Positions 46,731-54,366 of a stretch of DNA of 64,000 bases are shown one piece after another (within the stretch, counting starts at the first letter, position 1; every line of letters starts with the position of its first letter). This DNA is from an uncultured Clostridia bacterium (GTDB taxonomy: Bacteria; Bacillota; Clostridia; Saccharofermentanales; Saccharofermentanaceae). The position numbers were made by a program, and so were the translations under genes. The notes under the pieces are model-generated. The model had not been told where the DNA came from, ran no database searches, and saw only the letters and a list, made by a program, of their open reading frames with translations. The stretch covers positions 1 to 64,000 of the forward strand of contig CAMZBB010000002.1 of the NCBI GenBank assembly GCA_947304405.1, given 5' to 3'.

Positions 46731-47750
46731 ATGGAAACCAGGATTGACAGGCTAGGAAGCGTTAGGGAAGACAAGTTGCGTCAGCTCAAGCAGCTGATTG
46801 CTGAATCTGAATACATTGTTTTTCTTGGCGGTGCCGGTGTTTCTACTGAAAGCGGTATTCCTGATTTCAGGAGCGGTACCGGTATATACAATTCCGACAG
46901 CGGAATGAAATACAGGCCGATAGACATTATTGCCCACGACTTCTTCATGGAGCATCCTGCTGATTTCTTCGACTTTTACAAGCGTAAGCTCATATATCCC
47001 GATGCAAGGCCCAACAAGGCTCATAAGGCACTTGTAAGGCTTGAGAAGCAGGGTAAGCTCAAGGCCATAATCACTCAGAATATTGATAACCTTCATCAGG
47101 AAGCCGGAAGCAAGTGCGTCATCGAACTTCACGGTTCTGTTTTCAGGAATTACTGCATGGATTGTGGCAAGAAGTATGATCTTGAATATGTGGTTGCTCA
47201 GGAAGGCGTTCCGCACTGTGAGAAATGCGGCGGCATGGTCAGGCCTGACATCGTTCTTTATGAAGAGAACCTCAATCACAAAGACGTTGATGACGCCATC
47301 AAGGCAGTTAAGAAGTGCGACCTTCTGATCATCGCCGGAACATCGCTTACTGTTTATCCGGCCGCAACTTTTGCCCAGTTCCTTAAGCATGACAGGATAG
47401 TCATTATCAATAAGAGTTCGACTTATATGGATCTTAAGGCTTTGCTTACGATCCACGACAATGTCGGCGACGTGCTTGATGCGTGCGTTCCTAAGCGTGC
47501 AAGCAGGGCGAAGAGCGCTTCTTCTAAAACTACTAAAGCTAAATCCAAGACTGCGGCTTCAAAGACTTCTGCCAAGACTTCTGCAAAAACAAAGCCGGCT
47601 TCCAAAGCGAAAACACCGGCAAAAGAAACATCCGCCAAGACCACTGCGAAAAAAGCAGCAACTGCCAAAAAGGCACCGGCAAAGAAGGCTCCGGCAAAGA
47701 AGCCCACATCGTCTAAATCTGCAGGAAAAGTGAATGACGGCAAGGCTTAA
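46731..47750 (+). CDS. NAD-dependent protein deacylase (sirtuin) with Lys/Ala-rich C-terminal tail
   Basis: GGAGVSTESGIPDFRSGTG, ITQNIDNLHQEAG, ELHGS, CMDC..CEKC; tail KTAKKAATAKKAPAKKAPAKK. Confidence 0.9.
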   Translation: METRIDRLGSVREDKLRQLKQLIAESEYIVFLGGAGVSTESGIPDFRSGTGIYNSDSGMKYRPIDIIAHDFFMEHPADFFDFYKRKLIYPDARPNKAHKALVRLEKQGKLKAIITQNIDNLHQEAGSKCVIELHGSVFRNYCMDCGKKYDLEYVVAQEGVPHCEKCGGMVRPDIVLYEENLNHKDVDDAIKAVKKCDLLIIAGTSLTVYPAATFAQFLKHDRIVIINKSSTYMDLKALLTIHDNVGDVLDACVPKRASRAKSASSKTTKAKSKTAASKTSAKTSAKTKPASKAKTPAKETSAKTTAKKAATAKKAPAKKAPAKKPTSSKSAGKVNDGKA

Positions 47751-49701: not shown

Positions 49702-51438
49702 ATGTTAGAAGAGTTAAGTGGTTATAAATCCATTTTCCTTGACTATTCAGTCCTTATAGAGTACGCAGGTACTCCGGTAATGGACGGACTTATGAGAGTC
49801 CTTGATTACGGCATGGATGTGTATGTTGATAAATCCTTCAAGGCACTTCATTATTGTACCCTGCATATAAAGGATCCCAAGGACCTCAAGGCTGCAGCTG
49901 CCATGAAGAAGATCTGTTCATATCTGCTTGCAGAGAACAGGCTGCATCTTATCAAGGAGATCGCCATCGATAAAGTCGCCGTCAATATCAATGAGATATC
50001 AGACGGTTGCTGCGTCCTGACCACGAGAAACTCGATCTTTACTAAGAGATTATATGAGAAGATGCCTTACTTGGGCTGTGATATTGCCATTATCGCAAAG
50101 GGTGTCCTCAATATCTTCGATTCGATCGATTCTTTGTGCTTCTCGTTCCCTAAGCAGGAGCCCAGCCGGCTTGCGTATAACAGTTCTTATATCGAGTCGT
50201 TCGGCAGCGCCAGCATCTCCGATGTTGTCGTTACGGATAAAGATGTCAAGTATGAGCTCGTTAAACGTCTCAGCGGCGGTGCAGAGGGCATGGTGTTTAC
50301 GACCAACCGTGAAGGCCATATCGTCAAGATATACCACAAGGGCATTATCACCCCGCTCCGTTGGGCAAAGCTCAAGAAGCTTACCGAGCTCGGAATCTCC
50401 GGTAATGGTTTCTGCATTCCCAAGGAACTTGTATATTTCCGCAATTCTCCTGTCGGTTATACGATGACTCTGGGCAAGGGAACTACGCTCGGAACTGTTT
50501 TCGACGGGCCTGATGCCATGCTCGAAGCTTTCCCGGAGTGGACGAGATGTGATGTCGTTAAGACTCTTCTTTCGCTTATTGAGAAGTATATATATCTTCA
50601 TATGCATGATGTCGTTGTAGGCGACATACAGTTGAAGAATGCGTTGATCGATACGTCTTCGGATGTTTATCTCATCGACATGGACAGCGTTCAGATCGGC
50701 AATCTTCCTTGTCCGGTCGGTACAGAAGAGTTTACTGATCAGAGATTATGGGGCAAGGATTTCTCCAAGTTCTTAAGGGAATTGAGGGATGAGGATTATT
50801 CGATCGCGATGCTTGTTTTCTCAGTCCTTTTCTGCGGGCTTCATCCTTATGCTACCCGTAATGGTGCTGAGACGCTCAAAGAAGAGATCGTAAACTATAA
50901 CTTCCCTTACAATTTCGAGAATGAATCGGAGTTCATTCCGGTTGGCGGTTACGATCACATCTGGGAATATACTTCTGACAGACTTCGTAAGATGCTCTAT
51001 GAGACGTTTAAGAACGGATGGTCATTTGACACGCTCGAATGGCTTGATGCTGTCGTTAAATACAAAGAAGATCTAGAGAACTTCGTCTACGATGATCCCG
51101 AAGCATATAAGCTTTTCCCGAAAGAGAACTATAAGCAGGCTTCAGTTGATGTGGAAGAGGCAAGAGAGAATCTGAAGCGTAATGCCGGCAAGTCCAAGCC
51201 TGCCGCACAGCCTGATCGTAATCAGGCACCTGCGCCGGTTCAGTCCGAACCTTCAGAGCCTGCAGTTTTCGGCAAGCCTATATTTGCCAGACCTGAAGAA
51301 CCTGTATCTAATGCAAATTCTCCTTTCGCGAAGAAGACTTTTGCCAATGTTCCTACGGGAAAATACATTCCCAAGGATCAGCTTCACGACCAGGATGATG
51401 AGGTTGCAAAAAAGAAGAAGTTCTTCGGATTATTCTGA
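49702..51438 (+). CDS. Protein kinase-like protein with N-terminal PIN-like domain
   Basis: N-term FLDYSVLIEYAG...DGCCVLTTRNSIFTKRL PIN-like; kinase LSGGAEGMVF, VKIYHKG, VVGDIQLKNALID, LIDMDSVQ, VGTEEFTDQR. Confidence 0.7.
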   Translation: MLEELSGYKSIFLDYSVLIEYAGTPVMDGLMRVLDYGMDVYVDKSFKALHYCTLHIKDPKDLKAAAAMKKICSYLLAENRLHLIKEIAIDKVAVNINEISDGCCVLTTRNSIFTKRLYEKMPYLGCDIAIIAKGVLNIFDSIDSLCFSFPKQEPSRLAYNSSYIESFGSASISDVVVTDKDVKYELVKRLSGGAEGMVFTTNREGHIVKIYHKGIITPLRWAKLKKLTELGISGNGFCIPKELVYFRNSPVGYTMTLGKGTTLGTVFDGPDAMLEAFPEWTRCDVVKTLLSLIEKYIYLHMHDVVVGDIQLKNALIDTSSDVYLIDMDSVQIGNLPCPVGTEEFTDQRLWGKDFSKFLRELRDEDYSIAMLVFSVLFCGLHPYATRNGAETLKEEIVNYNFPYNFENESEFIPVGGYDHIWEYTSDRLRKMLYETFKNGWSFDTLEWLDAVVKYKEDLENFVYDDPEAYKLFPKENYKQASVDVEEARENLKRNAGKSKPAAQPDRNQAPAPVQSEPSEPAVFGKPIFARPEEPVSNANSPFAKKTFANVPTGKYIPKDQLHDQDDEVAKKKKFFGLF

Positions 51439-51501
51439 TAATTTCCATCACATTATGTATATAATGGAACTGTTCAGATTGTTTTGATCGGAGGTCTTAT
51501 T

Positions 51502-52236
51502 ATGGGAGAGATGTTCAGTTCTGCGGATTTCGGTACAAGCACAAAAAGGAGACTTCCTATCTGTTTCGCGCTTGATACTTCCGGTTCGATGATGGGTAAT
51601 CCGATAAAGCAGCTCAATATGGGTTTGCAGAACTTCCTGGCATCGATAAAGAACAATGACGATACCCGTTCATCTACTGATATAGCTATCATTACATTCG
51701 GCTCAAAAGTCGAGATCGTAATGCCTTTCGGAAAGATCGCCAAGGACAAGGGCGTTCCTGAGATCACAGCATCAACTACTCTGACTCCTATCGGTGAAGG
51801 TATCCTTACTGCTTTGGAGCTCCTCAACGCACGTAAAGAGGGTTATAAGCAGATGGGTATCAAATACTATCAGCCCTGGCTGGTAGTCATTACGGACGGA
51901 GCTCCGCAGGGCCCTAATGCCATGCAGAATATGGAGCTTGCGATCAAAGCATGTAACGAGCTTGAAGCTAACGATAAGCTTGTCATTTTTAATATCGGTG
52001 TTGGTTCTGGTGTTGATTTCGATATCTTGAGGAGGCTTTCAGTTAAGCGTGAGGAGCCTATCTCGGTCAACTCTACTGATTTTGCTAAACTGTTCGAATT
52101 CCTCGGTTCGTCTTCTTCGTCCATCGTTTCTTCGGGAATGAGCGACGACGCACTTTATCACATCAATACGGCTCCTACCGGAGATGCAGTTGGTGTTGAT
52201 GATTTCATGAAGTTCATTAACGAGGATGACAACTGA
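51502..52236 (+). CDS. vWA-domain protein (TerY-like)
   Basis: CFALDTSGSMMGNPIKQLN MIDAS motif DxSxS, VVITDGAPQG. Confidence 0.85.
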   Translation: MGEMFSSADFGTSTKRRLPICFALDTSGSMMGNPIKQLNMGLQNFLASIKNNDDTRSSTDIAIITFGSKVEIVMPFGKIAKDKGVPEITASTTLTPIGEGILTALELLNARKEGYKQMGIKYYQPWLVVITDGAPQGPNAMQNMELAIKACNELEANDKLVIFNIGVGSGVDFDILRRLSVKREEPISVNSTDFAKLFEFLGSSSSSIVSSGMSDDALYHINTAPTGDAVGVDDFMKFINEDDN

Positions 52237-53321
52237 TGTATTCGGGAATCACCGTCGGCTGTGTTACCACCATCGGAAATAAGCATATCAACAGGCAGGT
52301 GCCTTGCGAGGATGCTTCTTTCGCGATGCAGAAGAACGGTGTTTCCGTTGTTTGTATTGCTGACGGCGCAGGCGGAAAGAAATATACACATGCCAGATTT
52401 GGTTCGGCTTGTGCAGTCAAGACGATTTCCGAGATACTTGCCGATCATTTTGACGCGCTGTACAGCGAGAACAGGGAAGCGGCCGTAAGATCTTATCTTA
52501 TGGCGAAGATCAGGATCGAATTTGCGGACATAATCGCAGAGAAAGAATTGGATACCCTTGATCAGCTGTCCTGCACTTTGCTGTTTGTTGCCGTAAAAGA
52601 CAGAAGAATGATCATCGGTCATTTGGGAGACGGCCTGGTAGTAAGGATATCTCCTTCGGGACTGTCGCCGTTCTCAATGCCCCAGAACGAGAAGGACGGT
52701 ACGACATTCTTCATTACTGCCGGTCACGCCGCTGATTACATGCGATTCATCAAGACTACAGTTGATGACTGTCATGCCGTTGCTCTGATGACTGACGGCG
52801 TTCAGGACAACGTCTATGATGAGGATTCCGGTCTGGTCAAACCCGTTGTGGCTAAGATGACCGAGACTTTCGCGGAAGGCCGTGAGAAGGGCGAAGAACA
52901 GATCAAAGAAATCCTTGAGAAATATATCGTCGGTTCGAGCAATGTCAGTGATGACTCCTCTTTTGGCGTTCTGCTCTTTGAGGGCACCCCGGCTCCTGAC
53001 GTTTCATCTCTTGAGAGCAGTGCCGGCAAGTTCGGTACTTCCGATGAGAACTTCAAGAGTGTTGCCATGTCGATCAAAGAGGATCTGATAAAGGCTTCTG
53101 AGATAATCAGTTCCGCTGCGTCAAAATCTGAAGAGGGCAAAGAAGAGGAAGCAAATAAAGAACCTGAGTCTGAGCCGGTTCCCGAGAAGACTGAACCCGA
53201 GCCTGCTATCGATCCTTCCGACGTTGCTGTTAAGTCGAGCAAATTTAATATTCCTGCCTTGATATTCGGCATTGCCTGTATAATAGAACTGATCATCATT
53301 GTTTTGCTGCTGGTTTTCTGA
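52236..53321 (+). CDS. PP2C-like protein phosphatase with C-terminal TM helix
   Basis: VVCIADGAGGKKYTHARFGS, GHLGDGLVV, LMTDGVQDNVYDED; TGATG coupling with vWA gene. Confidence 0.8.
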   Translation: MYSGITVGCVTTIGNKHINRQVPCEDASFAMQKNGVSVVCIADGAGGKKYTHARFGSACAVKTISEILADHFDALYSENREAAVRSYLMAKIRIEFADIIAEKELDTLDQLSCTLLFVAVKDRRMIIGHLGDGLVVRISPSGLSPFSMPQNEKDGTTFFITAGHAADYMRFIKTTVDDCHAVALMTDGVQDNVYDEDSGLVKPVVAKMTETFAEGREKGEEQIKEILEKYIVGSSNVSDDSSFGVLLFEGTPAPDVSSLESSAGKFGTSDENFKSVAMSIKEDLIKASEIISSAASKSEEGKEEEANKEPESEPVPEKTEPEPAIDPSDVAVKSSKFNIPALIFGIACIIELIIIVLLLVF

Positions 53322-53335
53322 CTTAGGAGGCTACC

Positions 53336-54193
53336 ATGAGTGACGAAAGAAAATACGAAGTACTTCCCGGCGTAGAATTACCTGACATGAAATCTATCAA
53401 TGCGGCCGCATCGGATTTCTCTGTGTCCGGAGTCTCGGATATTCAGATCAAGAGTCCCAAGCCTTCCTATACATCTGAAGGAAAGGCCGCAGACATGGCT
53501 ACGGCTGAGGAACTGGCTATGCTTCAGTCCTTGGGTGACCAGGTCGCTGCTGATGAAGCCCGTGCCGCAGCAGAGAGCCGCAGACGTATGGATAACATCC
53601 TTGCCAATGCCGTCCAGAAGCCCGAATCTATCGTTGATCTCTTGAATTACAACAGGGACAAAGTCTCCGAGGAACGTATCAAAGAGAAAGAAGAAGAGTT
53701 GAAAAAGGCTGAAGAAATCAAGAAGGCTGCTGAGGAAAAGGAACGCCAGAGAGAAGAGAGAAGACAGTTGCAGCAGCGTCTGTTGATGGAGGCTCGTGAA
53801 CGTGCCGCTGCAATGAGGGAGGCTGAAAAACGAGGGATCAAGGCTAATGAATCTCTTATCGAGAATAATGAAGGTGAATCAGAAGCTGAAAATGAATCCA
53901 AAAATGAAACCGAAACCAAGCCTAAGGCTGAACCCGAGGTTGCTCCCGTAAAAGAGACCGAATCAGAACCCGAAATGTCATTTGCTGATCCGGATAAGGT
54001 GTTTGCCTCTGCTCCTGCCAAGATCGAATCTGAAAAACCTGCACCGGAACCTGTCAAGGAACCAGAAAAGCAGCAGGAGATGCCTGCGCCTAAGAAACCT
54101 GAAAAGAAGATCGAGGAACCTGTTAAGCCTTCGATAGCATCTGCTGAAGAGACATTTGACGACTTCAGCGAATTCCTTGACGGCAACAAGTGA
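53336..54193 (+). CDS. Charged Glu/Lys-rich coiled-coil protein
   Basis: EERIKEKEEELKKAEEIKKAAEEKERQREERRQLQQRLL; acidic Pro-rich C-terminal part; 15 nt after phosphatase. Confidence 0.6.
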   Translation: MSDERKYEVLPGVELPDMKSINAAASDFSVSGVSDIQIKSPKPSYTSEGKAADMATAEELAMLQSLGDQVAADEARAAAESRRRMDNILANAVQKPESIVDLLNYNRDKVSEERIKEKEEELKKAEEIKKAAEEKERQREERRQLQQRLLMEARERAAAMREAEKRGIKANESLIENNEGESEAENESKNETETKPKAEPEVAPVKETESEPEMSFADPDKVFASAPAKIESEKPAPEPVKEPEKQQEMPAPKKPEKKIEEPVKPSIASAEETFDDFSEFLDGNK

Positions 54194-54290: not shown

Positions 54291-54366
54291 GCACCTCTAG
54301 CTCAGATGGTAGAGCAACTGACTCTTAATCAGTGGGCCCAGGGTTCGAGTCCCTGGAGGTGCACCA
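54291..54366 (+). tRNA. tRNA-Lys(CTT)
   Basis: GCACCTC/GAGGTGC acceptor, loop CTCTTAA, encoded CCA. Confidence 0.95.

Follow-up and report, generated by a model that had tools for sequence, protein, structure and literature searches.

Modules that join a kinase with a PP2C-type phosphatase and a von Willebrand factor A (vWA) protein have been described in several bacterial contexts. The TerY-P triad (Anantharaman et al., 2012, cited through its description in PMC11090510) comprises a vWA protein with a metal-ion-dependent adhesion site (MIDAS), a PP2C phosphatase and a Ser/Thr kinase. In Escherichia coli the YegI, PphC and YegL genes are clustered, and it was reported that PphC dephosphorylates the autophosphorylating, membrane-bound kinase YegI (PMC13232886, citing Rajagopalan 2018 and 2020). 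In actinobacteria an active kinase, sometimes fused to transmembrane (TM) helices, is found with a PP2C and a stand-alone vWA protein in association with GAP1-N2 (PMC7159879). This work concerns a cassette of four genes that encodes the same three kinds of proteins plus a fourth one, and is located at positions 49702-54193 of a 64,000-nucleotide stretch of DNA (the whole of which is called the window) from an uncultured Clostridia bacterium of the Saccharofermentanaceae (contig CAMZBB010000002.1, assembly GCA_947304405.1). Based on the available evidence, the cassette probably serves Ser/Thr phospho-signalling as a membrane-linked module that is core to a single Clostridial family, and it is related to the widespread lineage of kinase–vWA–PP2C sets (YegI/PphC/YegL, TerY-P-like).

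The four co-directional genes proposed in a first-pass annotation of the window were all confirmed as open reading frames (ORFs) on the plus strand. The genes and their recognizable parts are the following:

49702-51438, plus strand: gene 1, apparent pseudo-PIN domain fused to a predicted Ser/Thr kinase, 578 aa (ORF, fold and alignment)
49702-50121, plus strand: N-terminal PIN-fold domain of gene 1, residues 1-140 (AlphaFold2 and Foldseek; D14 kept, the other nuclease acids lost)
50242-51141, plus strand: kinase domain of gene 1, residues 181-480 (23-row alignment, AlphaFold2 fold, profile match to YegI)
51409-51438, plus strand: C-terminal tail of gene 1, KKKKFFGLF and stop, at the place where sister-genus kinases carry a TM helix
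51502-52236, plus strand: gene 2, vWA-domain protein, 244 aa, ATG at 51502 (PF00092, alignment)
51574-51588, plus strand: MIDAS motif DTSGS of gene 2 (D25, S27, S29), the site being completed by T92/T95 and D132
52236-53321, plus strand: gene 3, PP2C phosphatase, 361 aa (PF13672, alignment)
53259-53315, plus strand: predicted C-terminal TM helix of gene 3, residues 342-360, mean hydropathy 3.27
53336-54193, plus strand: gene 4, charged, helical and partly disordered protein, 285 aa (homologue alignment; no Pfam family)
53345-53425, plus strand: N-terminal block of gene 4, KYxxLPGVxxPDxxxIxxAASDFS-like, starting KYEVLPGV (alignment)
54158-54178, plus strand: C-terminal peptide of gene 4, DDFSEFL (alignment)

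The genes are closely packed. The stop codon of the kinase gene and the ATG of the vWA gene are 63 bases apart, the vWA stop and the PP2C start share one base within TGATG, as had been noted in the first reading, and a 14-base gap separates the PP2C stop from the start of gene 4. A scan of the plus strand found no terminator-like site between the cassette genes, the one short match lying inside the PP2C gene, and the promoter-like matches in the cassette were near the shuffle background. The block is closed by a tRNA-Lys (54291-54366) and a convergent oxidoreductase gene on the minus strand. The order and spacing of the cassette are repeated in nearly every complete locus, for which chance is no explanation, and the observation of the cassette is real.

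The host is a rumen Clostridium resembling Saccharofermentans. Its genome (2.16 Mb in 117 contigs, 91%-complete) has its nearest named relatives in Saccharofermentans, together with metagenome-assembled genomes from the rumen. The distribution of the cassette was surveyed in 148 genomes of the order, of which 75 belong to the family (53 to the genus and 22 to other genera). The kinase had a strong match in 52/53 genus genomes and in all 22 genomes of the other family genera, and the vWA protein was present in the same 74 of the 75, the single family genome with a match to neither being G066 (87% complete); in the genomes of the order outside the family only weak, generic matches to both proteins were detected. 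In the loci read, the kinase and vWA genes lie next to each other, and the survey favours the co-occurrence on which the first-pass annotation had staked its proposal. In loci long enough to tell, the neighbourhood comprises a GyrA-like gene, a polysaccharide-deacetylase-like gene, a PH-like gene, Sir2, a MutS-like gene and the cassette, with the oxidoreductase, DeoA and RuvCAB in many of them; in sister genera a pyridoxal phosphate-dependent decarboxylase gene lies between the MutS-like and kinase genes. Nearly all the family members examined have a single copy of the cassette, with housekeeping genes on its flanks, a pattern that looks like vertical core inheritance and not like an island.

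This pattern bears on the suggestion that the cassette is a TerY-P-type system that defends against phages on its own, with infection triggering kinase signalling and the shutdown of the cell. TerY-P-like modules with a kinase–OB fusion were reported as stand-alone antiphage systems (Gao 2020, cited in PMC11090510), and triads with related PIN-kinases are found on plasmids near transposases and transfer genes. However, the locus is not only core, single-copy and syntenic but also slowly evolving; PADLOC models, including a TerY model, gave no match at E<=1 for the vWA and PP2C proteins and only marginal ones for the kinase and gene 4; no nuclease or toxin effector was recognised in the cassette, whose sole nuclease fold is degenerate; and the kinase had no match in 50,697 phage records. 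A defence role is very unlikely in the light of these data, and the carriage of the cassette by defence islands or phages was rejected on the basis of PADLOC, neighbourhoods and phage records.

All the folded parts of the cassette are under purifying selection, and the mean column identity in the homologue alignments was 87% for the vWA protein, 63% for the PP2C, 56% for the kinase and 33% for gene 4. The vWA protein, the most conserved member of the cassette and the sole VWA match in the genome, was assigned to PF00092 (54 bits, E 3.2e-14), its ratio of non-synonymous to synonymous substitutions (dN/dS) being 0.014-0.044. The five MIDAS positions (D25, S27, S29, T92/T95 and D132) are invariant in 23 homologues, confirming an intact site, and the profile of this protein matches the vWAs of the triads as well as YegL. 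In some loci (G018:C165, 11683-12407; also L009, L037) the reading of the vWA gene is divided over two frames that overlap, as a result of either a frameshift or an assembly error.

The PP2C assignment is likewise secure (PF13672, 127 bits, E 6.8e-37): D26, D43, G44, D132, D187, D239 and D240, which include the metal-ligand aspartates, are invariant in 23 homologues, and the predicted C-terminal TM helix of the first reading is found in 23/23 of the homologues examined (mean hydropathy 2.7-3.3). Sister-genus kinases also end in a predicted TM helix (7/7 examined, hydropathy 2.7-3.4), whereas those of the genus have short basic-hydrophobic tails, KKKFFGLF in the clade of the window and GLFKNRR-like in others; in the AlphaFold2 model residues 501-578 of the window kinase form a low-confidence tail ending in FFGLF. 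As kinases with TM ends occur together with a tail-anchored PP2C, these sequences suggest that the phospho-reaction takes place at the membrane, in agreement with the membrane link proposed earlier, and the FFGLF tail itself may bind the membrane. The other kinase and PP2C genes of the genome are on different contigs; among them, a kinase gene and a PP2C gene that lie side by side on contig C19 resemble the usual PrkC/PrpC pair and are separate from the cassette.

In the kinase, the G193-A-E-G196 loop, K209, D308, N313 and D326 do not vary across the 23 aligned rows, in the setting of non-canonical motifs, with GDIQLKN replacing HRDxxxxN (D308/N313) and DMD replacing DFG (D326). Pfam, NCBIfam and PADLOC scans of the kinase produced only sub-threshold matches (for PF00069, 12.6 bits, under the cut-off of 31.7), in addition to weak matches to the LanL, Kdo kinase and CcrZ profiles. 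Single-sequence searches of the PDB were also weak (kinases with E of at least 0.024; Stp1 with E 9e-4 for the PP2C), and for this reason structure prediction and profiles were used instead. The AlphaFold2 model (predicted local distance difference test, pLDDT, of 85) has a kinase fold, with PknB 5u94 as the top PDB match, and the conserved residues point to a protein-kinase activity of the gene 1 product. The unusual GDIQLKN and DMD motifs and the weak profile scores could also be read as a kinase fold that does not phosphorylate proteins, being involved for example in AMP transfer or small-molecule phosphorylation, or that is mainly a scaffold. This is improbable, considering that the ATP-site and catalytic residues are invariant, that a PP2C partner is consistently linked to the kinase and that the matching kinase YegI, described as having no conserved motifs, was reported to autophosphorylate on serine (PMC13232886).

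Among the closest known systems is the E. coli cluster, which the profiles of the cassette match one for one (YegI, E 2.6e-21; YegL, E 6.5e-33; PphC, E 2e-8). There are, however, clear differences in architecture: YegI starts with the kinase domain, which is followed by long extensions towards the C-terminus that include a hydrophobic segment, whereas in the window the PIN fold comes first and there is no C-terminal domain; PphC has no hydrophobic segment comparable to the TM helix of the cassette PP2C; and the yeg cluster has no counterpart of gene 4.

With the TerY-P triad the cassette shares the logic of a MIDAS-containing vWA, a PP2C and a kinase, as the first-pass annotation proposed; its remark that the kinase fusion looks non-canonical was also borne out. 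Filing it as TerY-P was tried and rejected. The TerY-P kinase bears a C-terminal zinc ribbon (an OB-fold in TerY-P-like modules) and the triad has Ter or restriction/DNA-processing neighbours (PMC11090510); neither C-terminal domain was found on the window kinase by family scans or in the AlphaFold2 model, zinc domains being confined to the distant members of the A5 set, and the cassette is flanked by GyrA, Sir2, MutS-like, tRNA-Lys, oxidoreductase, DeoA and RuvCAB genes. The cassette has, in turn, the pseudo-PIN, the TM or hydrophobic tails and gene 4 as additional elements. A module for tellurite or metal stress that works with Ter proteins would be in line with the kinds of proteins present, which are those of the triad proposed as a metal-sensing switch. 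Yet neither TerD nor TerC was found anywhere in the 91%-complete genome, extending to genome scale the earlier remark that no Ter genes were visible, and the kinase has no recognizable zinc ribbon; association with TerC/TerD was rejected after this search, and such a function is hardly credible.

The actinobacterial sets belong to GTPase-centred conflict systems, and no such GTPase was identified beside the cassette. As TM-bearing kinases with PP2C and vWA partners are known from these sets (PMC7159879), an anchor in the membrane is no novelty by itself. The feature that appears to be new is the combination of a pseudo-PIN domain, a membrane or hydrophobic tail in place of the zinc domain, a dedicated fourth protein and family-wide core status.

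Modelled alone, residues 1-160 of gene 1 gave a confident AlphaFold2 structure (pLDDT 93.1), for which the best PDB matches by Foldseek were the PIN domains of Utp24 and Utp23 (from pre-ribosomes) and of the archaeal AF0591 (1o4w, E 9e-4), the moderate TM-scores (about 0.5) indicating a resemblance at the level of the fold. Closely related pairs with unsaturated synonymous divergence gave a dN/dS of 0.07-0.09 for this domain. PIN nucleases have three to four conserved acidic residues, which were not found in the genus alignment: only the first aspartate (D14) is conserved (19/19 rows), position 2 is H/Y and positions 3 and 4 are not conserved as acids. The active-site acids are kept in relatives with a PIN domain detected by Pfam (L106, L140, L141, L143, L149), and in two sister-genus rows (L099, L104) a glutamate still adjoins position 2, the alignment there not being tight, so that the acids may have been lost stepwise. 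The N-terminal domain is apparently a pseudo-PIN, i.e. an inactivated RNA-cutting domain; the earlier PIN label holds for the fold and fails for the nuclease that it implies.

The pseudo-PIN could still bind RNA or the ribosome without cleavage and couple the state of translation or RNA to phosphorylation. The nearest folds are pre-ribosomal PIN domains, relatives in other Bacillota have fuller PIN sites, some of them with IF2_N and treble-clef domains, and YegJ, whose gene lies between pphC and yegI in E. coli K strains, was reported to interact with RNase E (PMC13232886). However, the similarity to Utp24 is generic, the IF2_N and zinc domains are absent from the cassette and the YegJ link concerns a gene that the cassette does not have; a regulator of this kind is considered unlikely, though less so than the alternatives discussed above.

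Gene 4 consists of two conserved end blocks joined by a charged, variable helical stretch. In 23 genus sequences F277, E279 and F280 of the C-terminal peptide are invariant. Homologues were found in 52 genus genomes and in 10/22 sister-genus genomes, the latter aligning over the N-terminal ~80 positions only; these sister forms keep a diverged N-terminal block, and the shortest (about 114-134 aa) have only that block and a short helical stretch. The protein had been described as a charged coiled coil: the charge was borne out, the coiled coil only in part, given the modest heptad signal of the window protein and the short sister forms. Judging from its sequence, the protein resembles a substrate or adaptor that carries docking peptides more than it does a long coiled coil.

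Based on these features a working model can be proposed for the phospho-signalling module. The inactivated PIN domain would let the kinase sense a ligand or partner, and the kinase would phosphorylate partners encoded in the cassette, among which the gene-4 protein, the vWA protein or both are the most likely; the vWA protein, by means of the MIDAS metal site, would tether kinase and substrate; the tail-anchored PP2C would reverse the phosphorylation at the membrane, as the action of PphC on YegI suggests by analogy; and the gene-4 protein would carry the output through its conserved end peptides. Some observations weigh against the proposal of a core phospho-signalling module. The kinase departs from the canonical HRD and DFG motifs, which leaves its protein-kinase activity a prediction; in G053 the cassette is split by an insertion of two-component and ABC-transporter genes, showing that strict co-transcription is not universal; and gene 4 was not detected in 12/22 sister-genus genomes, where it may be dispensable, or too short or diverged to be detected.

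The same N-terminal PIN joined to a kinase of the same family, followed by vWA and PP2C genes, is found in triads of other Bacillota and Paenarthrobacter (L106, L139-L143, L149, L150). In these the PIN acids are largely kept, most have a treble-clef zinc domain at the C-terminus of the kinase, there are sometimes two vWA genes, and some PIN-kinases elsewhere in Bacillota begin with IF2_N. In contrast to the cassette, core to one family, they are scattered, and two are on plasmids, with genes for transposase, recombinase or transfer functions nearby: one of Paenarthrobacter sp. AT5, in whose record the kinase is annotated as a PIN domain-containing protein, and pFN9B of Lysinibacillus capsici. 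As L106-L108 are themselves rows of A5, their E-values with its profile follow by construction and do not count as evidence; an independent A1-based profile also finds them. The kinase tree sets the family kinases apart from the triads with PIN-kinase and zinc domain, but it is dominated by long branches and its rooting is unsafe, and therefore no direction of evolution is read from it.

It is conceivable, as a tentative and somewhat doubtful scenario, that the ancestor of the Saccharofermentans family acquired, in a single capture, a PIN-nuclease–kinase–vWA–PP2C module of the accessory and at times plasmid-borne kind, which was made into a housekeeping membrane switch, the nuclease becoming a pseudo-PIN sensor, the zinc domain giving way to a membrane anchor and a dedicated partner protein being added. 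If the PIN domain indeed turned into a sensor, a nuclease fold would have been reused for signalling and an accessory module would have become housekeeping. Kinase–vWA–PP2C triads are widespread, and the family-core version, with a clade-specific partner and without the nuclease residues and the zinc domain, is a favourable case for finding a natural substrate.

Other features were noted in these loci. The kinases of L140 (7786-10296) and L141 (1282-3816) unite an N-terminal IF2_N domain, PIN, kinase and treble clef in a single polypeptide, a hint that some form of the triad is linked to translation or RNA. In the triad of the Lysinibacillus plasmid (L150, 9442-10098) the gene directly after that of the PP2C encodes a protein that matches the DnaJ domain weakly (E 9e-4), and in L107 (6105-10017) a TIR–Sel1/TPR gene lies directly ahead of a kinase–zinc-ribbon and vWA pair, a defence-like arrangement. 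The insertion in G053 (L110, 4305-9936), between the vWA and PP2C genes, carries genes for a response regulator, a histidine kinase and an ABC-transporter ATPase, along with three that are unassigned. In L036 (12459-15148), L056 (12070-14289) and L057 (12071-14317) gene 4 and the oxidoreductase are separated by additional DNA of about 2 kb or more, near the position of the tRNA-Lys in the window, which is a possible integration spot. Finally, the Sir2 gene upstream of the cassette (46731-47750) encodes a sirtuin whose last 75 or so residues (47500-47750) form a tail rich in Lys, Ala and Ser that is like histone H1, and Sir2 homologues vary in how far their match extends into it.

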